Below are positions 3 to 53,971 of a stretch of 64,000 bases of DNA, piece by piece. The notes beneath the pieces are model-generated. The model was not told the origin of the DNA and did no database searches. It saw only the letters and a program-made list of their open reading frames with translations. The position numbers and the translations under genes were made by a program. Each line of letters opens with the position of its first letter. Positions within the stretch are counted from its first letter, which is position 1. Source of the DNA: Microvirga lotononidis (GTDB taxonomy: Bacteria; Pseudomonadota; Alphaproteobacteria; Rhizobiales; Beijerinckiaceae); assembly GCF_034627025.1 (NCBI RefSeq), contig NZ_CP141048.1, positions 4,664,001 through 4,728,000 of the forward strand. Reading direction: 5' to 3'.

Positions 3-2591
<2,589 letters not shown>

Positions 2592-3660: not shown

Positions 3661-3664
3661 AATG

Positions 3665-5316: not shown

Positions 5317-5326
5317 GGTCAGGGTC

Positions 5327-29441: not shown

Positions 29442-29905
29442 CAGAAAGGCCCCAACTGCATCTGGACGCCCAGTCCAAGGATGAAAACGAGGATGCCAAA
29501 AATCGTCAGCACCACGATGGAGGCGGCGACCTCACGAAGTCGCGTTTCCGGATCGGCCAGGCTGCCGACACCGATGAGCCAAGCGACCGCGATGATGAAG
29601 CCTAAGGATCCCGCTGCATAAGCAAAGCCCGCGATCGCGAGGAGAATGATCAGGAGCGGACGCAGCCTAACGACCTCCAGAGGCTCGTTGGAGCGCAGAA
29701 GTCCCATGATTGTCACTCCGAGGCCGATCAGGACGATCAGACCCGAGACGATCAGCGGAAGGTAACCCGGACCCATCATGGCAGCACTTCCCATCCGTAG
29801 GTCGCGCCCGCCCCAAAGGCCGAGCGCTCCCACAACGATGAAAATCAGACCAGCAAGAAGGTCAGGATGGTTACCGGTCCGCCCAATTTTCGAGCGGCTG
29901 GTCAT
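29441..29905 (-). CDS. tctB: TctB-type small membrane subunit (second TTT set)
   Basis: 154 aa with four predicted helices (LLAGLIFIVVGALGLWGG; YLPLIVSGLIVLIGLGVTI; LLIILLAIAGFAYAAGS; IVVLTIFGILVFILGLGV). The ATG at 29905 (MTSRSKIGRTG) overlaps the upstream tctC stop by one base (TAATG), and its own stop overlaps tctA by one base. This chain of overlaps supports stoichiometric, coupled synthesis. A longer frame upstream lies inside tctC and is not used. Confidence 0.92.
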   Translation of the reverse strand: MTSRSKIGRTGNHPDLLAGLIFIVVGALGLWGGRDLRMGSAAMMGPGYLPLIVSGLIVLIGLGVTIMGLLRSNEPLEVVRLRPLLIILLAIAGFAYAAGSLGFIIAVAWLIGVGSLADPETRLREVAASIVVLTIFGILVFILGLGVQMQLGPF

Positions 29906-36364: not shown

Positions 36365-38026
36365 TTACTCCGAGGCGCAGGAAAAGCTGGATGCGCTGTT
36401 GATGTCGCCGGAGCCCTTGTACTTGGGCCAAGTGGGATACTCACAGAGTGGGCGCGTCCGCCCCTTCGTCGCCGTCTTCGTCGCATCGACGACGATAGGA
36501 GCAGCCGGAGGAACGCCGTTCTCGACCCAGTTGTCCAGCGCGGTCAGGTTGTCCCAGGTCGGCGAAAACTTGCCTCCGCCATGAGCGAGGCCGGGAACGA
36601 GATAGAACCTCATGAACCCATCCACTTTCTCCTCGCCCATCTTCGCGACAACACTCTTGTAGAGGTTCGCGTTCACATAGGGGCTCACGCTGGGATCGTC
36701 ATTCCCTTGAACCCAGATGATCTTCCCGCCCCGTGCGCGGAACGCTTCCCAGTCCGATTTCGTGGCCCCGATCTGCTCGGACAGGTGTACGATCCTGTCC
36801 TTGAGCGCTCCAGGGTTCCTGATGTCGAAATTCAGCAGGCTGAAGTCGCCCCTGCGAGCGACGAAGCTCTGCATGAACTCGTAGGCCCGGCTGGAATGGT
36901 GCGCGTTCGGACCAGACACAGGCGGCTCGCGGTAGGCCGCCTGCGAGCCGAGTTGCATCGTGATCCCCTCGAGACTGTTGTAGCCTTGATAATCGTTGAT
37001 GCCGTCGGCGAGCTTGTACGGCAGGGAGTAGCCGTTGTGGTAGACGTTGATCGTCCGCTCGATCTGGGCCGTGGTGAGACAATGCTCGGGATGGCCCGTC
37101 TCGCCGTTCTTGCACCTTAAGCCTTCGATGAAAGCATCGGCCCGGCCGCGGCAGGCTTCCGGATTGCTGACCAGCCCGTCGGCGGCCCCATCGAGCGCGT
37201 CGCAGGCCGTAATGGCATCCGCGGCAATCCGGTTGACGAGGCCCGGCGGTATCCACCCGGCCGAATTGTCGTCATAGACCGCGCGAGCCAACGCGGCTCC
37301 CCACAGCCTGAGGCCCACGAAACTGGCCGTGGGATAGTTGGTGAGGATCCCGTCATAGGCCTCGGGCCAACGCATTGCCGCCGTGAGGCCTTCCCGACCG
37401 CCGGTCGACCCGCCGGAAAAGTACACACGCCGAGGCGTGGACCCGTACCGCGATTGCGAAAGATACTGGGCCACATCCAGCGTCTTCTTGATATGCATGA
37501 AGCCATAGTTCAGCATGGCCTCGTCGTTCATGCCGAACGAAGCGTCGTCGGCATTCGGCGCCTGATGTCCCGAGTCGCTGGCGAAGGTGATGTAGCCTTG
37601 AGCAAGCGGTGTCGGAACATTGTCCAAGCCGAGCGTTGGCTTCGTGAGGGTCTCGGGAATGCTGCCGTTGTAGCCTCCGCCTCCCATTTGCAGAGCCTTC
37701 CTGTTCCAGTGCGTCGGAAGGTTCACTTGCCACAGGATCTTCGGCGCCTTCTCGTCAACGGGATTGATGGCTCCCCTCACCTGGCAGAACTCGCCATTCG
37801 AATTGTCGGCGCGCCCAGCCTCCATGAAGGTCGCGTCCGTGACCTCCGCTCCTGATGTCGGAAGGCTGATAGCCCCAGCCTCGATCTTGAGGCCAGCCAA
37901 GCGTTCGCAGCTCTCCCTGGCCCCGGATGTCGCGGCGAACACGGGACCCGTTCCCGCATTGCTGCAAATGAACGCTGCCCCAAGAGCAGCAACAGATCTC
38001 CATCGTATGACGGTCTTGGTCGGCAC
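36365..38026 (-). CDS. Tannase/feruloyl-esterase family protein (secreted)
   Basis: 553 aa with a signal peptide (VIRWRSVAALGAAFICSNAGTGPVFAATSG). The alpha/beta-hydrolase core has LPTHWNRKALQMGGGGYNGS, the nucleophile Ser207 in VYFSGGSTGGREG, a candidate acid Asp444 in GNDDPSVSP and His482 in LVPGLAHGGG. The family cleaves aromatic esters such as gallates or ferulates. Most members have Cys beside the Ser and His (the CS-D-HC motif with a linking disulfide); both cysteines are Gly here. GTG start at 38026 preceded by AGGAGGAAC. Downstream of a class C hydrolase gene on the same strand (43-base gap), so likely one operon under the nearby LysR regulator. Confidence 0.88.
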   Translation of the reverse strand: MPTKTVIRWRSVAALGAAFICSNAGTGPVFAATSGARESCERLAGLKIEAGAISLPTSGAEVTDATFMEAGRADNSNGEFCQVRGAINPVDEKAPKILWQVNLPTHWNRKALQMGGGGYNGSIPETLTKPTLGLDNVPTPLAQGYITFASDSGHQAPNADDASFGMNDEAMLNYGFMHIKKTLDVAQYLSQSRYGSTPRRVYFSGGSTGGREGLTAAMRWPEAYDGILTNYPTASFVGLRLWGAALARAVYDDNSAGWIPPGLVNRIAADAITACDALDGAADGLVSNPEACRGRADAFIEGLRCKNGETGHPEHCLTTAQIERTINVYHNGYSLPYKLADGINDYQGYNSLEGITMQLGSQAAYREPPVSGPNAHHSSRAYEFMQSFVARRGDFSLLNFDIRNPGALKDRIVHLSEQIGATKSDWEAFRARGGKIIWVQGNDDPSVSPYVNANLYKSVVAKMGEEKVDGFMRFYLVPGLAHGGGKFSPTWDNLTALDNWVENGVPPAAPIVVDATKTATKGRTRPLCEYPTWPKYKGSGDINSASSFSCASE

Positions 38027-38069
38027 GTTGTTCCTCCTGAGTTTCCTTATGGCCGTGATCGGCTTCAGC

Positions 38070-39203
38070 TCATTTCCCGCGTGCCGCGACGACGAGGTCC
38101 GCGATCTTGAGGAACTCGCTGGCCGACACCTTCGGCGGCTCGAACTTCGTCTCGCCGAGATTGCGGGCGATCGAGAATTCGTCCGCCACGGCACGTCTGT
38201 GGACGATGACGGTATCAATCGCGGGAAGGACCAGGATGAACTGGCCGAAGTTCCCGTTAGCGAGGAACGAGCCGGCCCATTCCAGAGCCGTGCGGCTTTC
38301 GGGGATCCACCAAAGGTAACTGTAGCCGAGCGGACCTTTGTCGGCCATGTCTCTCGCTTTGACGCGAAGCTTCGTGCTCTCGGCGACCCATTCGGCAGGG
38401 ATGAGTTGTTGCCCGTTCCACTGGCCTTTATTGGCCATGAGGACACCGAGGCGCGCCATGTCCCGGCCCGACAGGAAGAGGTGATAGGCCAGGTAGCGTG
38501 ACTGGTTCTGATAGCCCATCATGCGCTGGCGGGACGGATCGTAGTCCTGCATCTGGAGCGGCGCAGCGAGATCCTCGCCGAAAGCCTGGAAGACGGTCTT
38601 ACCGGTGAGCTTCTCGAAGATGGCGCCGAGGACGTTGAAGTCCCAGTTGTTGTAATGAAAGTAGGTGCCGGGCTGCTTTGAACCGCGCGGTGGTGTCGAC
38701 TCGTCGCCACCGGGACTTCCGGCCGGGTGATAGACGCCGGAACTGCTGATCAGGAGGTCGCGAACGCGCGCCGTCTTTTCGATCGGGAGAAGACCCTGGT
38801 CCTCTTCAATCCCGAGATCCGCGATCGTGTGGTCGAGGTCGATCGTGCCGTTCGCCACGTACTTCCCGTAGAGCATGGACAGAATGCTCTTCCGTGCAGA
38901 GGCCAGATAGCTCACCTGCTCGGTGAAACCGTAGCGGTACGCCACCTTGCCCGAGGTCACGACCATGAGCGAAGTCGTCGGCAGCGCATAAAGGCTGCGT
39001 TCTACTGCGGCGAGCCCTTCGCGCGTGAAGCCCCCTGTCTCCGGTGATACGTTTTCCCAATCCTTGCCTGGAGATGCGGGAGATGTTGCCGGCTGTGACT
39101 GAGCCTGGGCCGTTGTGGCATCGGCCAAGACGCTGAAAGCCGGCAGTCCGAGTGCGAGCCCTCGTGCAATAGCCCGACGTGTTAGCACGATTTTATCGGT
39201 CAT
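38070..39203 (-). CDS. Serine hydrolase, beta-lactamase/class C (EstB-like)
   Basis: 377 aa. A signal peptide with RRAIARGLALGLPAFSVLA (twin Arg, Tat-like). Catalytic S-x-x-K in YLASARKSILS, Tyr motif YNN in FHYNNWDFN, and a third motif HRR (VIVHRRAV) in place of KTG, as in class C esterases rather than true beta-lactamases. Probably a periplasmic esterase or amidase. First gene of a pair with the tannase-family gene. A 25-bp element shared with the lysR promoter lies 77-101 bases upstream of its ATG. Confidence 0.88.
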   Translation of the reverse strand: MTDKIVLTRRAIARGLALGLPAFSVLADATTAQAQSQPATSPASPGKDWENVSPETGGFTREGLAAVERSLYALPTTSLMVVTSGKVAYRYGFTEQVSYLASARKSILSMLYGKYVANGTIDLDHTIADLGIEEDQGLLPIEKTARVRDLLISSSGVYHPAGSPGGDESTPPRGSKQPGTYFHYNNWDFNVLGAIFEKLTGKTVFQAFGEDLAAPLQMQDYDPSRQRMMGYQNQSRYLAYHLFLSGRDMARLGVLMANKGQWNGQQLIPAEWVAESTKLRVKARDMADKGPLGYSYLWWIPESRTALEWAGSFLANGNFGQFILVLPAIDTVIVHRRAVADEFSIARNLGETKFEPPKVSASEFLKIADLVVAARGK

Positions 39204-39332: not shown

Positions 39333-40277
39333 TCAGTCGCTTCCCGCAGATAGGCGTGCCGATCTGCGCTCTATCTCGGCCGAGATCTTCCAAGTTCCAA
39401 GAAGCATCTCGAGAAACCGTTCCGCTGCGGGGGCAAGACGACCGCCGCGCCGCCTGACAACGCCGATCGTTCTCGATACTTCCGGACTGCCGATCGACCG
39501 CGTCACGATGATGGGGTGTTCAGCCTGCGGGGTCGCGAGTTTGGGCAGGACCGAGATGCCGAGCCCCGCTTCGACCAACCCAAGGGATGTCGAAAGGTGT
39601 GTCACCTCGTACGACCAACTCAGGCTTACCCCGGCGTGTACGAGCGCTGCATCCAGCAGGATGCGATTGCCGCTTGTTCGGCTCACGGCGACGAGCGGCT
39701 GTCCTTCGAGATCCGACCACGCGAGAACGTCTCGCTGCGCCAGCGGGTGGTCCCGTCGGCACGCCAGGACAAAGGGATCCTCGATCAGGGGTTCAAAGAC
39801 CAGCTCCGGATCGGACGCCCCGAGAAGGTTGATGCCGAACTCGACCTCGCCCCGCGCCACGCTCTCGAGACCTTCGTTCGCCGACAGGTCGAGGATCCTG
39901 AAGCGGATGTTCGGGTACTGCTCGTTGAAACGGGCAATGACGGAAGGCAGGAAGTAGAAGGCAGCCGTCGGGACGCAGGCCAGCGAAATTAGACCTCGCC
40001 TTTCCCGGCCGATGTCCCGCATCGCGAACAGCGAAGAGTCGAATTCGTCGAGCATGCGCCGCACGAGAGGCAGGAACTCACGACCGACGGTCGTCAGCGC
40101 CACCCGCCGGGTTGTGCGTTCCAGCAGCGCCGCTCCCACGGCCGCCTCCAGTCTCTGGATGCGGCGGCTGAGAGCCGGCTGCGATAAGTTCAGGGCCTCG
40201 GCCGCGCGGTGAAACCCCTCAAGGTCCACCACTGCAACAAAGGCACGCAGATCAAGCGATTCGAAATTGATGCTCAT
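39333..40277 (-). CDS. LysR-family transcriptional regulator
   Basis: 314 aa. N-terminal HTH (FVAVVDLEGFHRAAEALNLSQPALSRRIQRLEAAVG) and an effector domain with the usual LISLACVPTAAFYFLPSVI start and GLGISVLPKLA. Located between a minus-strand esterase pair and a plus-strand prpF-tct-ACL cluster, and flanked on both sides by copies of the same 25-bp element. The simplest model is that it autoregulates and controls both flanking transcripts, with a carboxylate as inducer. Confidence 0.93.
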   Translation of the reverse strand: MSINFESLDLRAFVAVVDLEGFHRAAEALNLSQPALSRRIQRLEAAVGAALLERTTRRVALTTVGREFLPLVRRMLDEFDSSLFAMRDIGRERRGLISLACVPTAAFYFLPSVIARFNEQYPNIRFRILDLSANEGLESVARGEVEFGINLLGASDPELVFEPLIEDPFVLACRRDHPLAQRDVLAWSDLEGQPLVAVSRTSGNRILLDAALVHAGVSLSWSYEVTHLSTSLGLVEAGLGISVLPKLATPQAEHPIIVTRSIGSPEVSRTIGVVRRRGGRLAPAAERFLEMLLGTWKISAEIERRSARLSAGSD

Positions 40278-40282
40278 AACGA

Positions 40283-40307
40283 ATTAATAACACCGATCTT
40301 TGCATTT
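40283..40307 (-). promoter_or_regulatory. 25-bp conserved element, copy 2 (candidate LysR operator)
   Basis: On the minus strand AAATGCAAAGATCGGT, three bases, ATTAAT; 21 of 25 positions match copy 1 at 39280-39304. It ends 6 bases before the lysR ATG and starts about 70 bases before the prpF ATG, in the shared divergent promoter. Confidence 0.6.
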
Positions 40308-40375
40308 CAAAGCAGTTTCAAGATTTGAGATGGTCCGCAGGCAATACAAATGATGGATCTGCCGCCGTGCACACC

Positions 40376-41575
40376 ATGCTCGCCCCCTCGAACAAGAACG
40401 CCCTGCGGGTCCCCTGCGTGCTCATGCGCGGCGGGACGTCGCGGGGGCCGTTCTTCCTGGAGACGGACCTTCCCGGCGATCCCAACGAGAGAGACCGTTT
40501 CCTGATCGCGGCTATGGGCTCCCCCCACGTGCTCCAGGTCAACGGCATCGGCGGCGGCAACCCGATGACCAGCAAGGTTGCGATCGTCAGCCGATCGTCT
40601 CAGCCCGGAGCGGATGTCGACTACCTCTTTGCTCAGGTCGCGACCGACAGAGCCTTCGTCGACGTCAGTCCGAACTGCGGCAACATGCTGTCCGCCGTGG
40701 GCCCCTTCGCGATCGAGGCCGGACTGGTGCCGGCCGAGATCGGCGAGACGACCGTGCGGATCTTCAATCGCAACACCTCGACTACGGTGGAAGCCGTGGT
40801 CCAGACCCCGGCCGGCGTCGTGGAATACGAGGGCGAGACCGCAATCGATGGGGTGCCCGGAACGGCGGCGCCGATCAAGCTGACCTTTCTCGATGCGCTG
40901 GGCTCCAAGACCGGCGCGTTTCTGCCCACCGGGCACGTCCACGAATTCATTGAGAACACCCCGGTCACGCTCGTCGACTACGCCATGCCGATGGTGCTGC
41001 TACGGGCGTCCGACTTGGGCCTCTCCGGCGACGAGCCTCCCGACGAGCTCGAAGCCAACCTGCCCCTCCTGGAGCGCCTGGAGGCCATCCGGCTGGAGGC
41101 GGGACTGCGCATGGGGCTCGGCGACGTGTCAGGCAGCGTCGTGCCGAAGCTCGCGATCCTGTCCGCGGCCCGTCACGGCGGGACGATCACGTCCCGCTAC
41201 TTCATGAACGCGCACCGTTGCCACAAGGGCCATGCAGTCACGGGTGCCCTGTGCATCGCAGCCGCATGCCGCCTGCCCGGCAGCGTCGCGCATGACCTCG
41301 CCACTCCCAGCCTCACGTCATTGGTGAACCTCGAGCACCCAAGCGGCCGGACCGAGATCGACCTGAGCTTCGACGCTTCCGGTCAGGTCTTGCGGGCAAG
41401 CCTTGTCCGCACAGCCCGCAGAATCTTCGAGGGTAACGTCATCGTCCCCGCAAGCGCCGTTGCGGCGCCTCTGGAAGGGATGCAACAAGGAGGAACCCAT
41501 GCCCAGGACCATCACACGCCGACTGCTCTGTTGCGCAATTCTAGCGGCATCAACGATGATCGCCGCACCCTTTAG
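40376..41575 (+). CDS. prpF: PrpF-family isomerase (aconitate isomerase / 4-oxalomesaconate tautomerase type)
   Basis: 399 aa, cofactor-free isomerase of the diaminopimelate-epimerase fold, shifting a double bond or its geometry in an aconitate-like acid. Signatures: VLMRGGTSRGPFFLETDLP, NPMTSKVAIVSRSS (catalytic Lys), VSPNCGNMLSAVGPFAIEAG (Cys), and GLGDVSGSVVPKLAILS. The GPFF and LFAQV versions of the motifs lean to the GalD-like branch. The ATG at 40376 is chosen because homologues begin about 10 residues before the RGGTS motif. The C-terminus overlaps the tctC signal peptide by 77 bases, a sign of coupling or of a slightly extended tail. First gene of a run with tctCBA and the citrate-lyase subunits. 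Confidence 0.9.
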   Translation: MLAPSNKNALRVPCVLMRGGTSRGPFFLETDLPGDPNERDRFLIAAMGSPHVLQVNGIGGGNPMTSKVAIVSRSSQPGADVDYLFAQVATDRAFVDVSPNCGNMLSAVGPFAIEAGLVPAEIGETTVRIFNRNTSTTVEAVVQTPAGVVEYEGETAIDGVPGTAAPIKLTFLDALGSKTGAFLPTGHVHEFIENTPVTLVDYAMPMVLLRASDLGLSGDEPPDELEANLPLLERLEAIRLEAGLRMGLGDVSGSVVPKLAILSAARHGGTITSRYFMNAHRCHKGHAVTGALCIAAACRLPGSVAHDLATPSLTSLVNLEHPSGRTEIDLSFDASGQVLRASLVRTARRIFEGNVIVPASAVAAPLEGMQQGGTHAQDHHTPTALLRNSSGINDDRRTL

Positions 41576-42494
41576 CGCGGCGATTGCACAGGACAGCTTC
41601 CCGATCCGGCCGATGAAGCTCGTGGTGCCGTACGCCGCCGGCGGCGGGACCGACGCGATCGCACGCCTCGTGGCACAGGGCGTCGGCGAGAAGCTCGGAC
41701 ATAGCCTGGTCGTCGAGAACAACGGCTCCGCTGGGGGTAACATCGCCACCCAGCAGGCGGCGAAGGCGGATCCCGACGGCTACACAGTCCTGATGGCCAA
41801 CCAGGGACCGATGGTGGTCAATCCCCACCTGTTCAAGAACGTCAAGATCGACCCTCTGACGGCCTTCGATCCCCTTACGCTCATCACGGCGGCGCCATTG
41901 GTGGTCGTGGTGCCGAAGGCCTCGACGCACGCGACGGTCAAGGACTTGATCGATTATGCGCAAAAGAACCCCGGCAAGCTGACCTATGGTTCGGCGGGCA
42001 ACGGTTCGGCAAGCCATCTGGCCACCGTCCTCCTCGCCCAGGAGGCGAACTTCCAGGCGACCCACGTGCCCTACCGCGGCGCCGGGCCGGCCGTGAACGA
42101 CCTCCTCGGCGGCCGCATGGACTTCATGGTGACCACCGTGCCGTCCATCCTCGGCCTCATCGAGAGCGGTGACGTGAAGGTCCTTGCGGTTACATCCAAG
42201 ACGCGGGCCAAAAAGTTCCAGGAGGTGCCCACAGTGGCGGAAAGCGGATGGCCGGCCTACGAGGCCACCGCCTGGTACGGGTTCGTCGTCCCGAAGGGAA
42301 CGCCGAAGGACATCGCCGACAAGATCCGGAATGCAACGGTCGAGACAATCACGAAGGGTGTCGTGCGGGAGCGGCTCGAGGCCGAGGGCGCGGAGCCGAT
42401 CGGCAACAGTCCCGAGGAGTTCGCCACCATGATGAAGGCGGAGTCCGCCCGCTGGGCCGAGATCGTCAAGAAGGCAAACATCTCCATCGACTGA
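41499..42494 (+). CDS. tctC: TctC/Bug-family substrate-binding protein (third TTT set)
   Basis: 331 aa. Signal peptide RRLLCCAILAASTMIAAPFSAAIAQD, then FPIRPMKLVVPYAAGGGTDAIARL and NNGSAGGNIATQQAAKA, the classical Bug ligand loop. The ATG at 41499 follows AAGGAGGAACCC and starts inside the end of prpF. Its tctB partner begins about 500 bases downstream, an unusually long gap within a TTT operon. Confidence 0.94.
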   Translation: MPRTITRRLLCCAILAASTMIAAPFSAAIAQDSFPIRPMKLVVPYAAGGGTDAIARLVAQGVGEKLGHSLVVENNGSAGGNIATQQAAKADPDGYTVLMANQGPMVVNPHLFKNVKIDPLTAFDPLTLITAAPLVVVVPKASTHATVKDLIDYAQKNPGKLTYGSAGNGSASHLATVLLAQEANFQATHVPYRGAGPAVNDLLGGRMDFMVTTVPSILGLIESGDVKVLAVTSKTRAKKFQEVPTVAESGWPAYEATAWYGFVVPKGTPKDIADKIRNATVETITKGVVRERLEAEGAEPIGNSPEEFATMMKAESARWAEIVKKANISID

Positions 42495-42996
42495 TCGAAG
42501 GCGCGAGAGCAGCACCATCCCCGGCGGCTTGGGTCCGAAGCGCCGGAGGTGGGAGCTGGGAGACGGACGGAAGACGGTACCCATGCCGACAACCATCGCC
42601 GTTGACAGCGGGAGAGACCGCGTCCTCGGCTGACACGCGCGGCAGACCCGGTTTCCGCCCGCATCTCGATCAACATGACCGCAAAGGTCCTGGACGAAAG
42701 CAGAGCCGACCCGAGACGCGATGCTTGGCTCGCTCACGAGCCTCCGGGGCGGTTCGACGATCCGGCAGCCTGGGAATGTTCGGACCGGATGCCGTCCGGC
42801 ACGGATGGCCCTTCACAGCGATTGCTCGCCGAGCGGTGAGATGACGGCCCCCGGAAGCAAGGCTCCTAGCCATACGTTCCCCGCGAGCCGCGAAGGCTTC
42901 ATGTGGAACGCGATGCACAAGACCTGCAAAAGCAGGCGCTCAAACAACCACGATGAAAAACCAGCACACCAAGCGGTGTGCCGAGGGAGATGAAAC
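42495..42996. other. Unexplained gap inside the third tct operon
   Basis: 502 bases between tctC and tctB with no recognisable gene. A plus-strand frame from ATG 42675 encodes 50-60 polar residues without a ribosome-binding site and is not called. The region ends with the hairpin at 42964-42981 in front of tctB. A second promoter for tctBA could lie here. Confidence 0.5.
42964..42981 (+). promoter_or_regulatory. Hairpin upstream of tctB
   Basis: GCACACC (42964-42970), loop AAGC, GGTGTGC (42975-42981), a perfect 7-bp stem just before the GAGGGAG ribosome-binding site and 15 bases before the tctB ATG. Could be an operator or a translational hairpin that tunes TctBA relative to TctC. Confidence 0.4.
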
Positions 42997-43665
42997 ATGT
43001 CTGAAACCGTCTCAGGAGACCTGTGCCCGGCGCGTGCCGGACCCGTCCGTTCCCCGCAGAGCCTCGTTGCCGGGCTGACGCTCGTTGCGCTCGCGGCCTT
43101 GTCGCTCTGGCTGATCAGTGACCTCGATCAGGGCACGTTGCAGTCCATGGGGCCCGCGCTCCTGCCACGTTGGCTGGCCATCGCGGTTGGCCTGTGCGGG
43201 CTTGTCTTGGTCGGGACCAGCTTTACGACGGACGGCGATTTTCTGGAGCGGTGGAGCCTGCGCGGGCCGGTCTTCGTGATCGGCTCGATCCTCGCCTTCG
43301 CCCTGACCATCCGCGGCTATTCCTTCGGGGCCTTCGCCCTTCCGGGCCTCGGCCTGCTGGTGGCCGGGCCGCTCGGCATCATCCTCGGCGGCTATGCCAC
43401 CCCCGAGGCGCGCCTGCGCGAGCTCGTCATCCTGGCGCTCAGCCTGACGCCGTTCTGCATGGTGCTGTTCGGCGACCTGCTCAACCTGCCGATCCCGGTC
43501 TTCCCGCAGGCCCTGACCAGCCTCTTTCCCGCCGACTGGTCGCAGAAGGCGGTGCTGCGCGCCTGCGCGGCGCTCATGACGGCCGGCGCCATCGTGATCT
43601 TCCTCGCCACGCGCAACCGACACCCAGGCCCCGTGGACGTGGCCGACCACTCCGGGAGGATCTGA
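42997..43665 (+). CDS. tctB: TctB-type small membrane subunit (third TTT set)
   Basis: 222 aa, longer than the other two TctB proteins (154-157). Four to five helices: LVAGLTLVALAALSLWLI, LLPRWLAIAVGLCGLVLVG, PVFVIGSILAFALTI, a central LPGLGLLVAGPLGIILGG, and a C-terminal AALMTAGAIVIFLATR beyond the usual end. GAGGGAG precedes the ATG. The stop overlaps the tctA start by one base (TGATG at 43663-43667). Confidence 0.9.
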   Translation: MSETVSGDLCPARAGPVRSPQSLVAGLTLVALAALSLWLISDLDQGTLQSMGPALLPRWLAIAVGLCGLVLVGTSFTTDGDFLERWSLRGPVFVIGSILAFALTIRGYSFGAFALPGLGLLVAGPLGIILGGYATPEARLRELVILALSLTPFCMVLFGDLLNLPIPVFPQALTSLFPADWSQKAVLRACAALMTAGAIVIFLATRNRHPGPVDVADHSGRI

Positions 43666-45170
43666 TGGGGGACTTCTTCGCCAACCTGAGCCTCGGCTTC
43701 GGCGTCGCGCTCAGCCTGCAGAACCTCGGGCTCGCCTTCCTCGGCTGCCTCGTCGGCACCCTGATCGGCGTGCTGCCCGGCGTCGGGCCGATCGCCACCA
43801 TCGCCATGCTGCTGCCGATCACCTTCGGGCTCGATCCCACCGGGGCGCTGATCATGCTGGCCGGCATCTATTACGGCGCCCAGTACGGCGGCTCGACCAC
43901 GGCGATCCTGGTCAACATCCCCGGCGAGGCCACCTCCGTGGTCACCGCGCTCGACGGTCACGAGATGGCCAAGCAGGGCCGCGCCGGCGTGGCGCTCGGC
44001 ATCGCGGCCATCGGGTCGTTCTTCGCCGGCACGGTGGCGACGCTGGTCATCGCCGCGCTCGGCGCGCCGCTCACCGGCCTCGCCCTGGTGTTCGGCCCGA
44101 CCGAGTACTTCTCGCTCATGGTCATGGGCCTGGTCTTCGCCGTGGTGCTGGCGCGGGGCTCGATCCTGAAGGCCATCGCCATGATCCTGGTCGGGGTGCT
44201 GCTGTCCACCGTCGGCACCGATCTCGAGACCGGCGAGGAGCGCATGACCTTCGGGCTGCCGTTCCTGTCCGACGGCATCGACTTCGCCGTGCTGGCCATG
44301 GGCATCTTCGGCATCGCCGAGATCATGCGCAACCTCGACCACACCGAGCACCGCGACGTGGTGCGCCAGGCCATCGGCCGGCTGCTGCCGAACCGCGACG
44401 ACTTCCGGCAATCCTACAAGCCGGTGGTGCGCGGCACCATCCTCGGCGCGATCCTGGGCATCCTGCCCGGCAACGGCGCGGTGCTCGGGCCGTTCGCCTC
44501 CTACACCCTGGAGAAGAAGCTCGCCAAGGATCCGCGCCGCTTCGGGCGCGGCGCCATCGAGGGCGTGGCCGGGCCGGAGAGCGCCAACAACGCCGGCGCG
44601 CAGACCTCGTTCATCCCGCTGCTGACGCTCGGCATTCCGCCGAATGCCGTGATGGCCCTGATGGTCGGCGCGATGACGATCCACGGCATCATCCCGGGCC
44701 CGCAGGTGATGACCAAGAACCCGAACCTGTTCTGGGGCATGATCGCGTCGATGTGGGTGGGCAACCTGATGCTGCTGGTGATCAACCTGCCGATGGTGGG
44801 GATGTGGGTGCGCTTGTTGAAGGTGCCGTACCGGCTGATGTTCCCGGCGATCCTGATGTTCTGCGCCATCGGCATCTACTCGATCAACTCGCTGCCCACC
44901 GACGTGATGTTCATCGGGCTGTTCGGGTTCGTGGGCTACGTGCTGATCAAGCTCGGCTTCGAGCCGGCCCCGATGCTGCTGGGCTTCGTGCTCGGCAAGC
45001 TGATGGAGGAGAACTTGCGGCGCGCGCTCATCATCTCGCGCGGGTCGCTGGAAACCTTCGTCAATCATCCGATCAGCGCCGGCCTGCTCGCCGTCGCGGC
45101 CATCCTTCTTGTGATCGCCCTGCTGCCTTCCATCCGCAAAGGCCGCGACGAGGTGTTCGTCGAGGACTGA
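43665..45170 (+). CDS. tctA: TctA-type large membrane subunit (third TTT set)
   Basis: 501 aa, [38 protein letters not shown] and GVAGPESANNAGAQTSF. The ATG at 43665 follows GGGAGGATCTG. Very GC-rich with a long antisense open frame that is a coding artefact. It is followed 56 bases later by the citrate-lyase-type small subunit, placing transport and cleavage genes in one operon. Confidence 0.95.
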   Translation: MGDFFANLSLGFGVALSLQNLGLAFLGCLVGTLIGVLPGVGPIATIAMLLPITFGLDPTGALIMLAGIYYGAQYGGSTTAILVNIPGEATSVVTALDGHEMAKQGRAGVALGIAAIGSFFAGTVATLVIAALGAPLTGLALVFGPTEYFSLMVMGLVFAVVLARGSILKAIAMILVGVLLSTVGTDLETGEERMTFGLPFLSDGIDFAVLAMGIFGIAEIMRNLDHTEHRDVVRQAIGRLLPNRDDFRQSYKPVVRGTILGAILGILPGNGAVLGPFASYTLEKKLAKDPRRFGRGAIEGVAGPESANNAGAQTSFIPLLTLGIPPNAVMALMVGAMTIHGIIPGPQVMTKNPNLFWGMIASMWVGNLMLLVINLPMVGMWVRLLKVPYRLMFPAILMFCAIGIYSINSLPTDVMFIGLFGFVGYVLIKLGFEPAPMLLGFVLGKLMEENLRRALIISRGSLETFVNHPISAGLLAVAAILLVIALLPSIRKGRDEVFVED

Positions 45171-45226
45171 AATCGTGGGCAAGCATCCGGTATTTGCGTC
45201 AACCCCATAGCAATTGGAGATTTACA

Positions 45227-46513
45227 ATGCAGATCACAGGCATGCTCCATGGAGCCAAGCTGCTTCAGTTCGCTGGGTTCCCGACTTCGGAGGTACTCGG
45301 CCCCGACGCCAGCGAGGAGGAGATCCGGGCGCTCATCGATCGCTATGGCAGCGTGTTCATCAAGCCGGTGTTCAAGGGCGGCGTCGGCAAGAAGGGCAAA
45401 GCGGGCCTCCTCGGCCGAGCCTCCGACCTGAAGACGGCGCTGAAGGAAAAGGAGCGGCTCTATTTCGTCGAGCATCGGGTTGGCTCCACCGTGGCCAAGG
45501 CGAACGGCGTGACCTTCGAGGGTGCGGTGCCGGCCGAGCACGAGGTCTACTTTTCGATCTCGGATTCCACTCGCTTCCGGGCCCCGACCATGACGCTCAC
45601 CCACCACGGCGGCATAGACATCGAGGAGGTCGACAAGAGCCTTGTCGCTCAGATCCCCTTCGATGCGCTGACCGGGCTCAAGGCCTTCGTGGTCGCCAAC
45701 GCCCTGTCCGAACTGAACGCGCCCAAGCAGATCATCTCACCGCTCGTGCAGCAATTGCCGAAGCTGTGGGAGCTCTACCACAACTTCGGCATGACCACCC
45801 TGGAGCTCAATCCGATCCGCATGCGGCCGGACCGGAACGGACGCCTGACCCCGGTGGCCTGCGACTTCAAATGCGGCTTCGACCGCGACGATCCGCGCTG
45901 GGAACGGCTCAACCTGCCCAACCACCTGTTTGCCGTCGACTACTCGGACTTCGAACTCGAGATCAACCAGCTCCGCACCTACCAGGGCCAGAGCGACGTC
46001 TACGTCATCAACCCGCAGGGCACGATCCTGGCGCCGACTTTCGGCGGCGGCGCTAACTCGCTGGTCACCCAGATGCTGGGCGACGATGCGATCATCTCCT
46101 CCGACTTCGGCGGCAATCCTCCGTATGAGAAAATGAAGAAAGTCGCGCAGATCTGCTTCAAGCACTGGCTCAAGCAGTCGAACGTGCTGTTCATCATCGG
46201 CGGCAAGTCGAACAACACCGACATCTTCGAGACCTTCCGGGCCATGGCCGACGCCCTGCGCGAGCACTTCGGCCAGCACGGTCCGACACCGCTCTATGTC
46301 GTGGCGGGTCGCGGCGGCCCCAATCTGGTGCGGGGCATGGGCGCCCTGCGCGATACCGTTGAGGCGCTCGGCGTGCCCTATCGCCTGTTCGGCTTCGATT
46401 CCGACATGAGCGAGGTTATCCACTACGCCCGCGCCGCGGATGCCTGGATGAAGGCAGGCGGGCGCGATGAGGTCGCGGCGAAGCTGCGCATTCCTGTGGC
46501 GGCCGCGGCCTGA
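45227..46513 (+). CDS. aclB: ATP-citrate-lyase-type small subunit (ATP-grasp and citrate-binding domains)
   Basis: 428 aa. An ATP-grasp domain of the succinyl-CoA-synthetase beta type (VFIKPVFKGGVGKKGKAGLL; TTLELNPIRMRP; ACDFKCGFD) occupies residues 1-240. The citrate-binding flavodoxin-like domain (INPQGTILAPTFGGGANSLV, SSDFGGNPPYEKM, LYVVAGRGGPNLVRGMGAL) occupies the rest. Together with the next gene it would form citryl-CoA from citrate, CoA and ATP, then split it to acetyl-CoA and oxaloacetate. GGAGA lies before the ATG. No other reductive TCA genes are in the window; together with the tct and prpF genes it looks catabolic or acetyl-CoA-supplying. Confidence 0.88.
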   Translation: MQITGMLHGAKLLQFAGFPTSEVLGPDASEEEIRALIDRYGSVFIKPVFKGGVGKKGKAGLLGRASDLKTALKEKERLYFVEHRVGSTVAKANGVTFEGAVPAEHEVYFSISDSTRFRAPTMTLTHHGGIDIEEVDKSLVAQIPFDALTGLKAFVVANALSELNAPKQIISPLVQQLPKLWELYHNFGMTTLELNPIRMRPDRNGRLTPVACDFKCGFDRDDPRWERLNLPNHLFAVDYSDFELEINQLRTYQGQSDVYVINPQGTILAPTFGGGANSLVTQMLGDDAIISSDFGGNPPYEKMKKVAQICFKHWLKQSNVLFIIGGKSNNTDIFETFRAMADALREHFGQHGPTPLYVVAGRGGPNLVRGMGALRDTVEALGVPYRLFGFDSDMSEVIHYARAADAWMKAGGRDEVAAKLRIPVAAAA

Positions 46514-46552
46514 GCCGAGCGCATGAACCCCTAGGCAGATTTGGAGGAGACC

Positions 46553-49255
46553 ATGTTCAAGCAGGGCGTCGGCAGCTTCAAGTACCACGTGGGCATCAGC
46601 TCCCTCGACCAGATCGCCACCCATGACGACCGGGTCTGCGTGCTCAACATCCTGGGCGGTGAGTCAAGCGACGTTACCCCGGTGGGCCACGCCTACTCAG
46701 GTGGAAACGTGGTGTTCGGCACCTCTCCCGGCCGCAGCGGCCAGGTGCTGGAGACGCCGGTTGGGAATGTGCCGGTTTACAACAACGTCCGCGAGGGGCT
46801 TGAGGCCGGGCATCGCTTCAATTGCGGCGTGGTCTATCTGCCGCCCTCCGGCGCCCGTGACGGTGTCGCCGAGCTGATCCGGGTCAATCCCGAACTCAAG
46901 AAGATCTTCATCGTCACCGAGAAGCTGTCCGTGCACGACTCGCGCGAGATCCGCGCCATGGGCCAGCAGAACGGCATCGACATCTTCGGAGGCAACAGCC
47001 TTGGCGTAGCCGACGCCTGGAACCAGGTCCGCATCGGCGGGGCGCTGGGTGGCGACAATCCGGCCGAGGCCCTGCGCAAGGGCTCGATTGCGATCTTCTC
47101 CAACTCCGGCAACTTCACCACCACCATCGCCACCTACCTTCGCATGGCCGGCTGGGGCACCACCACCCTGATCTCGAGCGGCAAGGACGTGTACATCCAC
47201 TACGCTGCCCCCGAGTTAGCGTTCGCACTGGCGAATGACGCCCGCACCAAGGCGGCCGTTCTCTACGCCGAGCCGGGCGGCTACTACGAGCTCGATGCCA
47301 CCTTCACCAAGCCGGTGGTGGCCTGTGTGGTCGGACGCTGGAAGTCGAAGCTCACCCGGGCGGTTGGCCATGCCGGCGCGATGGCGGGCGGCCACGACGA
47401 TGCCGCGGCCAAGGAACAATGGTTCATGGCCAAGTTCGGGGTCGATGACATCTTTACGCCCGAGAATCCGGTCTTCTCGTCCAAAGGCGCGGTCGTCACC
47501 AACATCGCCCACATTCCGGCAGCCCTGACGGCGGTGATGCAGGCGAATGCCGCTCGACCCGACTTCGCGCCCGAGGGTAGCCTGGCTCTCAAGCCGTGGT
47601 TCGGCTCGAGCCAGGGTATTGCGCTCCCCCCGGAACTCGACCTGCCGGTGGTCACCGCGGCAAGTCCTTATGACAAGCAGATCGAGGACCTGAACCGGCA
47701 GATCGGGGCGGTATTCCCGCGCCAGCCGATGAAGGATGCGTCCGGCGCCTCGCAGATGGATTCGAAGACCCAGATCACGGCCCTTCACGGCGTGTCGATG
47801 CTGGATGCGGCGCAGTTTCCGGTCGAGTCGAACATCTGTCTCTCCCTGCTGCGGGACCCGGGCAGCGAAAACGACCGTGCGTTGATCAATGCCGCCGTGG
47901 GGGCAGAGATCAACCTGTTCGGCACCCCTGCCCTGGCCGCCGCTCAGGCCGCGCGGGAAGCGGGCAACGCCCCCAACACGATCCTGGCGGCGGCGTGCAG
48001 CATCATTGGGCCTCGGCATGGGGAGCAGGCCCGGCGCGCCGTACGCGCGCTCGTGGAGGGCTTCACGGAAGCTGGATTGCGGTGCGCTGTCGACGAGAGC
48101 TTCGACCTGAGCCAAGTACGGTTCGACGGCGCGGCGGACCTGTTCGTTTCCGATCAACCCGACGCGAAGGCCGAAGCCCTGGTGAAGGGCTTGCAGGCCC
48201 GCGGCGCAAAATCGGTGTTCGTGCGCTACTTGCGCACCCTCAATGGCCACCCGACCGCGGATGCCGTTCTCGCCGCGGCAGCGGCGACGCTGGCGTGGGA
48301 GCCGCTGATGCGTAAGCGCATCTCGCTGCTGACGGCGGAGACCCTGCCCTGGTGGCTGCGATTGTTCGGCGTCCTGATCGGGGCGTCGGCTGATGCCGGG
48401 CGGCATGAGGGGGATGCCTTCGGCAGGATTCCGAACGAGGAGATCATCGGCACGCGGTCGCTCACCGAAGTCGCGTTCGCGGCCCTGGTGGGAAGCCAGC
48501 CCACGCCGGACGGTTTGTTCGCCTTCCAGACCCTGGTGGGCCTTCTGCTATCGAACGGGCCTGGCACCATCTCGGCTCAAGGAGCCAAGGGCGCCGTCTC
48601 GGCCGACGGTCCCGAGACACCCGAGCGGGTGCAGATCAACAAGGCGCTGATCGGCTTCCTGACTCATTGCGGCTATGCCCATGGCGGCAACGGCTACGAG
48701 GGCATCGCCTTCCTGATCGACCAGTTCCAGGACGTCGATCTGACGGATCCAGGAAATCCGGATCATGGCATCGACCTGCCGGCCCTGGCCCACCGCCACG
48801 CGGCCGATTACGCCACCTACAAGGCGGGCAAGAAGACCGCCGGCAGCGTGGACATCCGAAAGATCCCGGGCGTGAACCATCCCGTCTTCAAGGACAAGCC
48901 CGTCAACCACGATCCGCGCGAGGTGTTCGTACGGGAGCTGTTCGAACGGCGCGAGGAGTACAACGTCTTCCACGCGTACTATCGGGAACTCGTCAAGGCT
49001 CTCTACGAGACCGGAGTGTCGCGCAACGTCTACTGTGTCAACATCGATGCGGTGATCGCGGCCTTGCTCCTCAAGTTGCTGTGGCAGCCGTACCGCGAGG
49101 ATGATCTGGCCAAAGAGGCTCTGGAAATGAGTGCGTTCACGATCTTCCTCTACGCCCGCATGATCGGCTGCGCCGCCGAGATCGACGACCACCTCAACCG
49201 CGGCCGGAACATGGACACGCGAACGGCGGCATCCAAGTGCCAGTACGTGTCCTGA
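46553..49255 (+). CDS. aclA: ATP-citrate-lyase-type large subunit (CoA-binding, CoA-ligase and citrate-synthase-like domains)
   Basis: 900 aa. Residues 1-330 resemble succinyl-CoA synthetase alpha, with GNSLGVADAWN, FSNSGNFTTT and the phosphohistidine His273 in AVGHAGAMAGGHDDA. The C-terminal part is citrate-synthase-like: CGYAHGGNGYEG, IPGVNHPVFKDKP (His) and NVYCVNIDAVIAALLLKLL (Asp). Two-subunit ACL large chains are usually near 610 aa; the extra about 290 residues (roughly 420-640) look like a second, degenerate citrate-synthase half (NAAVGAEINLFGTPALAAAQ, SIIGPRHGEQARRAV). The ATG at 46553 has GGAGGAGA upstream. A related ligase-lyase acting on a citrate homologue is possible. Confidence 0.87.
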   Translation: MFKQGVGSFKYHVGISSLDQIATHDDRVCVLNILGGESSDVTPVGHAYSGGNVVFGTSPGRSGQVLETPVGNVPVYNNVREGLEAGHRFNCGVVYLPPSGARDGVAELIRVNPELKKIFIVTEKLSVHDSREIRAMGQQNGIDIFGGNSLGVADAWNQVRIGGALGGDNPAEALRKGSIAIFSNSGNFTTTIATYLRMAGWGTTTLISSGKDVYIHYAAPELAFALANDARTKAAVLYAEPGGYYELDATFTKPVVACVVGRWKSKLTRAVGHAGAMAGGHDDAAAKEQWFMAKFGVDDIFTPENPVFSSKGAVVTNIAHIPAALTAVMQANAARPDFAPEGSLALKPWFGSSQGIALPPELDLPVVTAASPYDKQIEDLNRQIGAVFPRQPMKDASGASQMDSKTQITALHGVSMLDAAQFPVESNICLSLLRDPGSENDRALINAAVGAEINLFGTPALAAAQAAREAGNAPNTILAAACSIIGPRHGEQARRAVRALVEGFTEAGLRCAVDESFDLSQVRFDGAADLFVSDQPDAKAEALVKGLQARGAKSVFVRYLRTLNGHPTADAVLAAAAATLAWEPLMRKRISLLTAETLPWWLRLFGVLIGASADAGRHEGDAFGRIPNEEIIGTRSLTEVAFAALVGSQPTPDGLFAFQTLVGLLLSNGPGTISAQGAKGAVSADGPETPERVQINKALIGFLTHCGYAHGGNGYEGIAFLIDQFQDVDLTDPGNPDHGIDLPALAHRHAADYATYKAGKKTAGSVDIRKIPGVNHPVFKDKPVNHDPREVFVRELFERREEYNVFHAYYRELVKALYETGVSRNVYCVNIDAVIAALLLKLLWQPYREDDLAKEALEMSAFTIFLYARMIGCAAEIDDHLNRGRNMDTRTAASKCQYVS

Positions 49256-49877: not shown

Positions 49878-51257
49878 ATGCGCCTTGAAGCTGGAAGCCA
49901 AGATCCGACGCCCACCGCGACGAAGAAATTCTATCACGCGCTCTATTTCCAAGTCGTCGTCGCCCTGATCCTCGGCATCGTCGTCGGCTATCTCTGGCCA
50001 GGCTTTGGCGCCGGGCTGAAGCCTCTGGGCGACGGGTTCGTCAAGCTGGTCAAGATGATGATCGCGCCGGTGGTCTTCTGTACCATCGTCAGCGGGATCA
50101 CCAGCCTCAGCGACACGCGGGAGATCGGCCGGACCCTGGTCAAGTCGATGGCCCTGTTCTACGCCCTAACCATCGCGGCGCTGCTCGTCGGCCTCGCGGC
50201 GGTCATGGTCATCCAACCGGGCCTCGGCATGCACGTCTCGCCGGCATCCTTGGATCCGACGGTCGTGACACGCTATGCCAAGGAAGCCGCCCCCGTGGGG
50301 TTAGCCGACTTCCTGTTGCATATCATCCCGACCTCGTTCTTCGGCGCATTCGCCGACGGCGAAGTGCTTCCGGTGCTGCTCATCGCCATTCTCGTAGGCT
50401 TCGCCCTGACCCGGACGGGCAAGGCCGGCGAACCGGTGCTGCGGGGCATCGACTCCCTCTCTCACGTGCAGTTCGCCGCTTTCGGATTCATCATGAAGCT
50501 GGCCCCGCTTGGCGCCTTCGGCTCGATGGCCTTTACCGTCGGCAAGTACGGCATCGGCTCGATCGGCTCGCTGGGCTTGCTCCTCCTGACCTTCTATATC
50601 GCGTGCGGCTTCTTCCTCGCGATCATCATCGGTGGATTGGCGCGCGCCCATGGCTTCAGCCTGTGGAAGGTCCTGCGCTACTTCCGCGAGGAACTGCTGA
50701 TCGTGCTCGGCACCTCGTCCTCAGAGCCGGTTCTGCCGCGCGTCCTCCAGAAGCTGGAGGCATTGGGCTGCAAGAAGGGCGTTTCCGGCCTCGTGCTGCC
50801 CATGGGGTATTCGTTCAATCTCGACGGGACGGCGATCTATCTGACACTGGCCTCGATGTTCATTGCGCAGGCGTGCGACATCCACCTGTCCGCCACTCAG
50901 ATCTTCACCATGCTCGGCATCATGCTGCTGACGTCGAAAGGTGCCGCGGGCGTCACAGGCAGTGGCTTCGTTGCCCTGGTCGCCACGCTGACGGTGATTC
51001 CGGACCTTCCGGTTGCGGGCGTGGCTCTGATCGTCGGCATCGACCGTTTCATGTCCGAGGCCCGCGCTCTTACCAGCATCATCAGCAATTGCGTCGTCAG
51101 CATTGTCGTCTCGATCTGGGAGAACGCCTGCGATCGCGAGATCCTGGCAAGGGAGTTGAACCAGAACTACGCCGGCACCGAGCGGTATCTGGAGGACGGG
51201 CGTGAGATCGAGGTCTTTCCGCTGCATCCCCAATCCCCGGCTCAGCCGTCACGCTGA
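49878..51257 (+). CDS. dctA: C4-dicarboxylate transporter DctA
   Basis: 459 aa of the DAACS (sodium or proton:dicarboxylate symporter) family. It has eight helices and two hairpins with the signature VLGTSSSEPVLPRVLQKLE (serine-rich HP1) and LPMGYSFNLDGTAIYLTLAS (helix 7 with the metal/substrate-binding NLDGT), then MLLTSKGAAGVTGSGFVAL (HP2). It imports succinate, fumarate and malate. The ATG at 49878 follows GAGGAGGAAACACG. The DctBD sensor pair that normally controls it is not in the window. An unusual AT-rich leader (49740-49830) precedes it and may hold the promoter. Confidence 0.95.
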   Translation: MRLEAGSQDPTPTATKKFYHALYFQVVVALILGIVVGYLWPGFGAGLKPLGDGFVKLVKMMIAPVVFCTIVSGITSLSDTREIGRTLVKSMALFYALTIAALLVGLAAVMVIQPGLGMHVSPASLDPTVVTRYAKEAAPVGLADFLLHIIPTSFFGAFADGEVLPVLLIAILVGFALTRTGKAGEPVLRGIDSLSHVQFAAFGFIMKLAPLGAFGSMAFTVGKYGIGSIGSLGLLLLTFYIACGFFLAIIIGGLARAHGFSLWKVLRYFREELLIVLGTSSSEPVLPRVLQKLEALGCKKGVSGLVLPMGYSFNLDGTAIYLTLASMFIAQACDIHLSATQIFTMLGIMLLTSKGAAGVTGSGFVALVATLTVIPDLPVAGVALIVGIDRFMSEARALTSIISNCVVSIVVSIWENACDREILARELNQNYAGTERYLEDGREIEVFPLHPQSPAQPSR

Positions 51258-51666: not shown

Positions 51667-52509
51667 TCATGGCTCTGATGCCTCCGGGAGCCTGCGCTCC
51701 GGTGTGCCCTCGTAGGCCCACAACCATTCGCGCGGCAGTGGCCCCTTGTTGCGATCAGGATACTGGGATTGCTCCCAGGCATGGGCGAGAATCCCGACCG
51801 AGCGGGAGAGGACGAACAGGCCGCGCGTCAGCGGCGGCGGGAAGCCCAGTTCCCCGTAAATGACAGCCGTGGCGCCATCGATGTTGAGCGGGATCCGCTT
51901 GCCCTTGCGTCGCTCGACGGCGGCCTCGACCGCCTCCGCGATGTCGGCGAAGCGTCCGGACACGGTGCCCTGCCGGGCGGCCTCCCGCACGAGCTCGAGC
52001 AGGCGCGGTGCACGAGGGTCGACCGGATGAAAGCGGTGGCCGAGCCCCGGAACATAGCCGCTCCGCGCAAAGAAACGGTCGACGCGATCCGCCACAGCAT
52101 CCTCCAGGGACTGACCCGCATCCATTGCGGCGGCGATGTCCCCGAAGAAGCCGAGCGCCTGTTCACCCGCTCCGCCATGCACGTCCCCAAGCACGTTGAT
52201 GGCGGAGGCCATGGCGCTGTTGATGCCGACGCCGCAGGTCGCAGCCATGCGGGCGATCGCGATCAAGGGCGCTTGCGGACCATGATCCACCGCCGCCCCC
52301 AGCGCCGTGCCGAGTAGGCTGGCTTGAGCCTCGGTCGGCAGTTCTCCCCGCAGCATGAGCCAGATCATGGCCGGGAAACTCACCCGGCCGATGAGGTCCT
52401 CGATCGGATAGCCCCGCAGCCGGATCATGCCAGGCCGCATCTCGATGATCTCGGTCGACCACCATTCCTCTCCGCGCTCGCGGCCTTCCTTGCGGGTCCG
52501 CTCCGTCAT
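51667..52509 (-). CDS. Citryl-CoA lyase / short citrate-synthase-like protein
   Basis: 280 aa, about two thirds of a normal citrate synthase. Catalytic residues are in LGDVHGGAGEQAL (His), YVPGLGHRFHPVDPRAP (His) and IPLNIDGATAVIYGELGF (Asp). The short form without the full N-terminal domain is typical of stand-alone citryl-CoA lyases, which split a citryl-CoA-like thioester into acetyl-CoA and oxaloacetate. ATG at 52509 with GAGGAGG upstream; it overlaps the end of the CoA-transferase gene by 4 bases (52506-52509), so the pair was built as ligase and lyase partners. Confidence 0.87.
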   Translation of the reverse strand: MTERTRKEGRERGEEWWSTEIIEMRPGMIRLRGYPIEDLIGRVSFPAMIWLMLRGELPTEAQASLLGTALGAAVDHGPQAPLIAIARMAATCGVGINSAMASAINVLGDVHGGAGEQALGFFGDIAAAMDAGQSLEDAVADRVDRFFARSGYVPGLGHRFHPVDPRAPRLLELVREAARQGTVSGRFADIAEAVEAAVERRKGKRIPLNIDGATAVIYGELGFPPPLTRGLFVLSRSVGILAHAWEQSQYPDRNKGPLPREWLWAYEGTPERRLPEASEP

Positions 52510-53640: not shown

Positions 53641-53971
53641 ATGGGGTTGGGTTGGCCGGAGGCGCGGTGATCCTGCCGCATGTCGGCGCGGACCGATGCT
53701 TGAGTGGGATCCTCGTCCGTCACTCCGAAAAGGCGCTTGCAGGGCGAAGCCGTCTCGCCATTCCGCGCTGGGGCGTGCGCTCGGCGATCCGGAATTCCCG
53801 CCGCCGAATTCAGGGGAATGCCCGATCCCGAAGCATGCCGCGGGGTGCTAGGCTCCGTCGGGAGCCAATCGTTCTCCAGTCACCCACGGAGAGAAAACCC
53901 ATGGGGCGATAGCGACCCTTGTCTGCCGGCCAGCCCTCGACGCGGCCGCCGCCGACCTCGACAGGACACGC
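53641..53971. other. Gap between CoA transferase remnant and a small gene
   Basis: 330 bases where the promoter and 5' end of the CoA transferase gene would be expected. No intact gene is visible. Confidence 0.4.

Follow-up and report, generated by a model that had tools for sequence, protein, structure and literature searches.

Putative catabolic operon in Microvirga lotononidis combining a PrpF-superfamily isomerase, a tripartite tricarboxylate transporter and a divergent type II ATP-citrate lyase

A named kind of ATP-citrate lyase (ACL), type II, is known from vestimentiferan symbionts and from Magnetococcus MC-1 (PMC3522073 and PMC6783814, both citing Hugler and Sievert 2011), and it is discussed mainly as an enzyme of the reductive tricarboxylic acid (TCA) cycle (PMC3522073, PMC6315080, PMC6783814). 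Citrate cleavage was detected in MC-1, which bears the postulated type II genes, according to PMC6783814. Here, a related gene pair was analyzed in a 64,000-nucleotide stretch of Microvirga lotononidis (contig NZ_CP141048.1, positions 4,664,001 to 4,728,000; this whole stretch is called the window), where it belongs to a cluster at 39333-49255 with genes of a LysR-type regulator, a PrpF-superfamily isomerase and a tripartite tricarboxylate transporter (TTT). Microvirga is a heterotrophic genus. Judged from its sequence, the cluster may well be a catabolic operon for an aconitate- or citrate-type tricarboxylate, which would serve import, isomerisation, hydration and ATP-dependent citrate cleavage, and we lean towards this reading with modest confidence.

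Several described systems share parts of this arrangement. TarRAB of Bacillus velezensis likewise combines a regulator, a carrier and a PrpF-superfamily isomerase whose product enters central metabolism, whereas its carrier TarB is discussed among importers of the major facilitator superfamily (MFS) in PMC11495376; the main text of that paper does not contain the terms "citrate lyase", "ATP-citrate" or "tricarboxylate transporter". The E. coli ybhD-ybhHIJ genes resemble the cluster in the divergent LysR gene, the same NCBIfam PrpF subfamily, a carrier annotated for tricarboxylates and then a carboxylate-type enzyme, but the carrier is another one, a putative hydratase stands in place of ACL, and the function is described as unsettled in PMC9068703. 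Compared to TTT systems with TctDE, the cluster shares TctCBA but has LysR instead of the two-component pair. On the Gemmobacter fulvus plasmid p2 (NZ_CP076363), in an arrangement of the tcu type, AclBA adjoins PrpF, TTT and a two-component pair, and there also tcuAB. TcuA oxidises tricarballylate to cis-aconitate, and tblastn with the Gemmobacter TcuA found nothing in the 64-kb window. Among the papers listed from the open-access literature, no description of the combination of ACL, TTT and isomerase was found (ACL and PrpF as a pair were not searched), and nothing was found on aconitate isomerase with TTT or on ACL with citrate utilization in Burkholderia.

The features of the cluster, in window positions, were as follows.

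39333..40277, minus strand: LysR-type regulator gene, transcribed divergently from the cluster; its product shares 48% identity with E. coli YbhD
40376..41575, plus strand: PrpF-superfamily isomerase, ATG at 40376; probably an aconitate isomerase, labelled by NCBIfam as 4-oxalomesaconate tautomerase
41499..42494, plus strand: TctC, periplasmic binding protein of the TTT
42495..42996, plus strand: 502-nt gap, possible seam between LysR-PrpF-TctC and TctBA-AclBA modules; no Rfam match
42997..43665, plus strand: TctB, small membrane subunit (Pfam)
43662..45170, plus strand: TctA, large membrane subunit (Pfam), 4-nt overlap with TctB
45227..46513, plus strand: AclB, ATP-grasp and citrate-binding subunit of the predicted type II ACL
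46553..49255, plus strand: AclA, with a SucD-like ligase part at about 1-330 and, fused to it, a citrate-synthase fold at about 390-885

The initial annotation had placed prpF, tctC, tctB, tctA and genes of an ATP-grasp and a CoA-ligase/citrate-synthase-like protein here in one direction, with lysR divergent and a gap of about 500 bases before tctB. Place, order and direction were borne out by Pfam and the open reading frames; the gap measured 502 nt and the others were short or overlaps, the TctC start overlapping the PrpF frame by 77 nt. Pfam bit scores over the cut-offs were obtained for PrpF (390; PF04303, cut-off 27), TctC (251), TctB (45) and TctA (519), the last three making up a full TTT set, and in the ACL pair for Citrate_bind (54), ATP-grasp_2 (46), Succ_CoA_lig (37) and CoA_binding (23.3). 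Citrate_synth_N on AclB (41 vs 83) and the citrate-synthase domain of AclA (22.5 vs 27) stayed below the cut-offs, the latter being backed by a fold match alone. The genome (7.3 Mb, 4 contigs) contained one AclA gene and one PrpF gene.

On sequence grounds, AclBA is a divergent type II ACL, which supports and refines the earlier proposal of an ACL-type enzyme within an uptake operon. The pair has the same two-subunit make-up, primer motifs and checked residues as the type II ACL of Magnetococcus MC-1 and vestimentiferan symbionts. AclB (ATP-grasp plus citrate-binding) adjoins AclA (SucD-like plus citrate-synthase-like; 900 residues), and the two are 70% and 57% identical to the pair in genome G006, which we take to be Magnetococcus MC-1. 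The best ACL entry for AclA in the Protein Data Bank (PDB) by sequence was 6hxj_B at 46 bits, and the Magnetococcus-type pair was closer than type I. The peptides VAKEEWF and NGFEAIA, encoded by the published type II primers, had matching motifs, with some changes, in 17/17 aligned rows. Residues H273, H710, H776, R789, D832, R869 and R890 of AclA were identical in 46/46 rows; by analogy, H273 is presumably the phospho-histidine. In AclB, the two citrate-ligase motifs were likewise present in 46/46 rows.

The citrate-synthase part was harder to recognise. A profile of it (17 rows) found no PDB sequence of any kind at E <=0.1, so that it was not identified as type I ACL by sequence and citrate synthases were missed too, and hhalign against E. 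coli GltA aligned just 39 columns (E 0.0052). The predicted model of whole AclA had a mean predicted local distance difference test score (pLDDT) of 74 and a predicted template modelling score (pTM) of 0.56. With this model, Foldseek returned ACL entries at ranks 3, 4 and others; VIA-align had no ACL entry among the best 50 rows listed, an absence that carries no evidential weight. Residues were mapped tentatively to citrate synthase by hhalign with a citryl-CoA-lyase-like protein of the window and by the fold match. In this tentative mapping, the AclA position taken as ACLY His900 was Gln in 45/46 rows, and we take H710 to be the citrate-synthase-type histidine at a site where ACLY differs. 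If this mapping is right, the enzyme would combine a ligase of the citrate type with a complete citrate-synthase fold in which the citrate-synthase-type H710 is kept. AclA relatives amounted to 3008 matches at E <=0.001, and the best 120 of 3008 were all at least 74% identical; in 19 plasmid records AclA was named, where annotated, "CoA-binding protein" (7) or hypothetical. The genomes bearing AclA were scattered, 8/48 in the genus (9 copies), 5/298 in the family sample and 3/385 in the class sample, with our own genome counted each time.

A conserved prpF-tct-ACL linkage in Hyphomicrobiales, which the initial annotation had put forward for checking, was found. The LysR-PrpF-TctCBA-AclBA layout occurred in 4/9 Microvirga AclA copies, those of the window and of three other genomes (L083, L086, L087), with AclA identity to loci in Microvirga records reaching 93%. 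Chance adjacency was thus judged unlikely, because the same gene order recurs in these three genomes. The remaining 5/9 copies (layout B; L082, L084, L085, L088, L089) had TTT genes and a TctDE-like pair, PrpF not being adjacent. Genome G691 held one copy of each layout with close AclA copies, and copies with and without PrpF interleaved on the tree (3 changes, 9 rows); therefore ACL would be expected to act on one substrate in both layouts, most simply citrate. Beyond Microvirga, PrpF was located about 4.1 kb upstream of AclA in 4/4 Sinorhizobium plasmid records with AclA, and in S. chiapasense, the sole annotated one of these, an NMT1-type ATP-binding cassette (ABC) transporter lies between the two. 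PrpF was near AclBA in three settings, each with different carriers. The PrpF link is narrower than the AclBA-carrier pattern, yet recurs.

PrpF also occurs apart from AclBA. Orthologues at least 73% identical were detected in 9/48 Microvirga genomes, 4 beside AclBA and 5 not. Among 301 plasmid records with PrpF, the best 30 of 301 were listed and 5 opened, and in each of the five PrpF adjoins a divergently transcribed LysR gene and the gene of a binding protein, three of them having a full ABC set. As far as the incomplete gene tables go, AclBA was not seen in the stretches of these five records, and no other carboxylate-metabolism enzyme was listed directly beside three LysR-PrpF-ABC modules (Rhizobium, Agrobacterium); in L113, a CoA transferase gene is situated about 5 kb from the LysR-PrpF-ABC module. 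Modules of regulator, carrier and PrpF without a further enzyme suggested a PrpF product that itself belongs to central metabolism, and cis-aconitate fits.

The genes beside AclBA in other genomes were compared by a rule that a TTT, 2HCT, CitMHS, TcuC/CitA-type MFS or DASS homologue lies <=7 kb from AclA. By this rule a citrate-class carrier was present at 27/41 AclA loci outside the Magnetococcus-type group (Microvirga 9/9; other genome records 10/19; family/class genomes 3/5; plasmids 5/8) and at 0/12 inside it. Thus the Magnetococcus-type ACL, discussed for carbon fixation by the reductive TCA cycle, was without such a carrier at all 12 loci, whereas the Microvirga pair is inside an uptake operon. 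Among the Magnetococcus-type loci annotated by Pfam, two adjoined nuo or lon/clpX/clpP genes and the third a sensor kinase. Four carrier families were paired with AclBA in Pseudomonadota, namely tripartite, TcuC-type MFS, CitMHS and 2HCT. NCBIfam identified the MFS carrier as the tricarballylate/proton symporter TcuC (760.7 vs 445) and the CitMHS carrier as a citrate:proton symporter (581.8 vs 259.7); the TctD-like regulators scored under the TctD cut-off. If the eight TctA genes of the genome were evenly spread, a random 18-kb stretch would hold one in about 2% of cases; the spread is uneven, with three of the eight in this window.

The count left out L082-L084, L087-L089 and L090 (second copies of L002, L003, L004, L005, L006, L020 and L108), L072/L073 (one gene over two contigs) and short-flank genome-search loci. 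It included L085 and L086 from one genome and L095 and L096 from one strain, and the Magnetococcus-type sample covered 12/38 genomes, two with short flanks (L058, L068). From the 19 AclA plasmid records, 8 were opened and counted, and S. fredii GR64 was opened and used in the tree only. Contig ends explained some carrier misses (L008, L014, L022), and L098 (ABC with PrpF) and L101 (2HCT just beyond 7 kb) were not counted as positive. Placed on a tree of AclA built by a quick method, the five kinds of carrier needed 7 changes over 29 labelled rows, the least possible being 4, and the labels were clustered, with 6 changes without ABC vs a shuffled mean of 13. The trees included 5/12 Magnetococcus-type loci, and L010-L026 except L022 (cut gene). 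Type II ACL might be widely citrate-catabolic, its two genes forming a cassette that is combined in heterotrophic Pseudomonadota with any available citrate-class carrier and that, with a PrpF aconitate isomerase, would complete a route from trans-aconitate to acetyl-CoA and oxaloacetate; we advance this wider proposal tentatively, as one that could fall either way. Separately, an AclA/AclB pair 43%/55% identical was observed on a contig of a Bacteroidales metagenome-assembled genome (L023:8501-12703), with no carrier by the 7-kb rule.

In the proposed route, the TTT would take up the acid (trans-aconitate or citrate), PrpF would isomerise trans-aconitate to cis-aconitate and aconitase would hydrate this to citrate. 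The AclB ATP-grasp subunit with AclA would then use ATP to phosphorylate the AclA histidine and make citryl-CoA, which the type II ACL would split into acetyl-CoA and oxaloacetate, while imported citrate itself would enter at the ACL step. We infer that PrpF acts on trans-aconitate and ACL on citrate, and likewise that the genes are co-expressed and that flux runs in this direction. Such a route for an aconitate- or citrate-like acid had been suggested before and is still the most economical reading of the gene content, set against the wider pattern of AclBA with several carrier families and of PrpF beside it in three settings. The aconitase step gained a candidate missing from the earlier account, the AcnA gene at 9-2591 of this window, one of three aconitase-family genes in the genome. 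Within the cluster, the 502-nt gap may join two modules.

Several observations weigh against this catabolic reading. A cell that has aconitase could oxidise citrate with no need of ACL, which leaves the ATP cost without an evident benefit; avoiding two decarboxylations is a possible gain from the ACL route. Three Microvirga genomes with a PrpF orthologue have no AclA, 5/9 Microvirga AclA loci are without PrpF, 2/8 AclA-bearing Microvirga genomes are without any PrpF family member, and the Sinorhizobium PrpF records H23, H28 and H47 are not among the AclA plasmid records. PrpF and AclBA each occur alone, and therefore neither part needs the other. The carrier labels are based on homology, TTT systems carry many acids, and the 2HCT carrier scored under its citrate:cation symporter cut-off (470.7 vs 549). 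No carrier was found by the rule at 14/41 loci, three of which end <=1.2 kb from AclA; the Aminobacter plasmid AclBA follows a run of oxidoreductase genes, and L091 adjoins an NMT1-type ABC transporter and a xylose-isomerase/HPPD-fold protein. The carrier references, except YbhI, were drawn from these same loci, which favours hits, and the carrier background was that of TctA in our own genome (8 genes in 7.3 Mb) instead of all carriers. In E. coli, the phenotype of the ybhD mutant was with L-malate, as reported in PMC9068703.

The role of PrpF can be read in other ways. The earlier assignment as an aconitate-type isomerase is consistent with the PrpF superfamily, whereas NCBIfam placed the protein over the cut-off of 4-oxalomesaconate tautomerase (OMA_tautomer, GalD; 499.8 vs 440), which counts against our reading. 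The protein would then be the true tautomerase of gallate/protocatechuate 4,5-cleavage, with gallate freed by a tannase and an aromatic acid imported by the TTT. A tannase gene does lie at 36365-38083, and likewise by the module in G691 and Agrobacterium vaccinii. However, gallate and protocatechuate 4,5-dioxygenases belong to the LigB family, and a whole-genome search found no LigB-family dioxygenase, while the same search was positive in E. coli and Caulobacter. The genes identified in the cluster include neither a hydratase nor an aldolase of the gallate route. The tautomerase model may also be broad, since it is passed by E. coli YbhH (515) and by the Sinorhizobium (507) and Gemmobacter (474) proteins too. 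The gallate-type role, although favoured by the model score, was thus disfavoured by the absence of LigB and by the genome content, and its chance appears slim. The nearest solved relative of PrpF is YbhH (6otv). TarA and TbrA of the PrpF superfamily are reported aconitate isomerases (PMC11495376), and aconitate isomerase probably fits PrpF better. It is unlikely, but worth weighing, that the operon handles citrate only and that PrpF repairs or recycles trans-aconitate as a by-product, with no catabolic entry. Speaking for this are the Microvirga loci of layout B (5/9), in which AclBA is accompanied by TTT genes and a TctDE-like pair and PrpF is absent, and the genome holding both layouts, whereas PrpF with a divergent LysR recurs with carriers in the plasmid modules opened, where AclBA was not seen, which looks like import plus isomerisation.

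For the lyase, the operon could instead serve another tert-hydroxy acid, e.g. 2-methylcitrate, homocitrate or citramalate, which AclBA would split. The very divergent citrate-synthase part and the Gln at the position matched to ACLY His900 leave room for such a substrate, but Citrate_bind of AclB is over the cut-off, the citrate-ligase motifs are present throughout, AclBA is paired with CitMHS, 2HCT and TcuC-type carriers, and citrate cleavage was detected in MC-1 with the postulated type II genes (PMC6783814); we regard this substrate change as rather improbable. That AclBA provides acetyl-CoA or works in the reductive TCA cycle, with the carriers as chance neighbours, follows the way type II ACL is discussed (PMC3522073, PMC6315080, PMC6783814). 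The carrier adjacency in 27/41 vs 0/12 loci, the two Magnetococcus-type loci that adjoin nuo or clp/lon genes instead, and the scattered distribution in genus, family and class make it hardly credible. If the catabolic reading is true, aerobic heterotrophs would gain an ATP-driven route of citrate/aconitate cleavage in addition to citrate lyase and the oxidative TCA cycle, and a role would be found for many proteins whose current names go no further than "CoA-binding protein" or "succinyl-CoA synthetase alpha subunit". The presence of type II acl genes could in that case not be taken as a sign of carbon fixation, a warning against inferring autotrophy from them.

The 502-nt gap may be the join of a TctBA-AclBA piece, because PrpF-TctC occurs without TctBA after TctC. 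In five other Microvirga PrpF-TctC loci no TctBA was detected after TctC (L131 ends there; in L134 a LysR gene lies beyond TctC). The window, gap included, matched no Rfam family at gathering scores, the fold z-score of the gap was -2.0, and a promoter/terminator scan gave 2 and 2 sites vs 1.1 and 5.0 in shuffles. The TctBA stretches 43120-45158 and 3767-5813 have second copies elsewhere in the genome, 98.2% and 99.8% identical respectively, and these near-identical copies (L116, L117), which adjoin other TctC genes, represent recent duplication or conversion.

Further genes of the window were as follows.

9..2591, plus strand: aconitate hydratase AcnA, which could provide the hydration step
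36365..38083, minus strand: protein of the tannase/feruloyl-esterase family with an uncertain start, encoded near LysR; possible ester-releasing partner
38070..39203, minus strand: beta-lactamase-family serine hydrolase, adjoining LysR
49878..51257, plus strand: DctA-type C4-dicarboxylate carrier, downstream of the cluster and possibly related

The tannase and serine hydrolase genes (36365-39203, minus strand) were also observed beside the LysR-PrpF modules in G691 and in Agrobacterium vaccinii, where they follow the ABC genes, and this tannase-family and beta-lactamase-family pair by LysR may hint that the natural source is an ester. A LysR gene with dctA was found near AclBA on Paraburkholderia/Caballeronia plasmids (L094-L097, at about 12-14.3 kb) and near PrpF-TctC in Microvirga (L134:12675-15210); the LysR proteins of L096 and L134 are 47% and 82% identical to that of the window. 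A TerC-like gene was located directly 3' of AclBA in 6/9 Microvirga copies (L083-L087, L089) and not in the window.

A second citrate-type module occupies 9-9380, with AcnA, a TctC-like stretch (2725-3606; 65% identical to layout-B TctC), TctA (94% identical to layout-B TctA), TctB, TctC and a TctDE-like two-component pair, the TctCBA and TctDE-like genes extending over 3817-9380; its TTT accompanies AclBA elsewhere in Microvirga. A third TctABC-like set was present at 27933-30864, its TctA being 62% identical to that at 43662. Finally, the citryl-CoA-lyase-like protein (NCBIfam 432.9 vs 261) is encoded with a class III CoA-transferase at 51667-53723 (minus strand), and these two might provide a second way of cleaving a citrate-like acid, based on CoA transfer.

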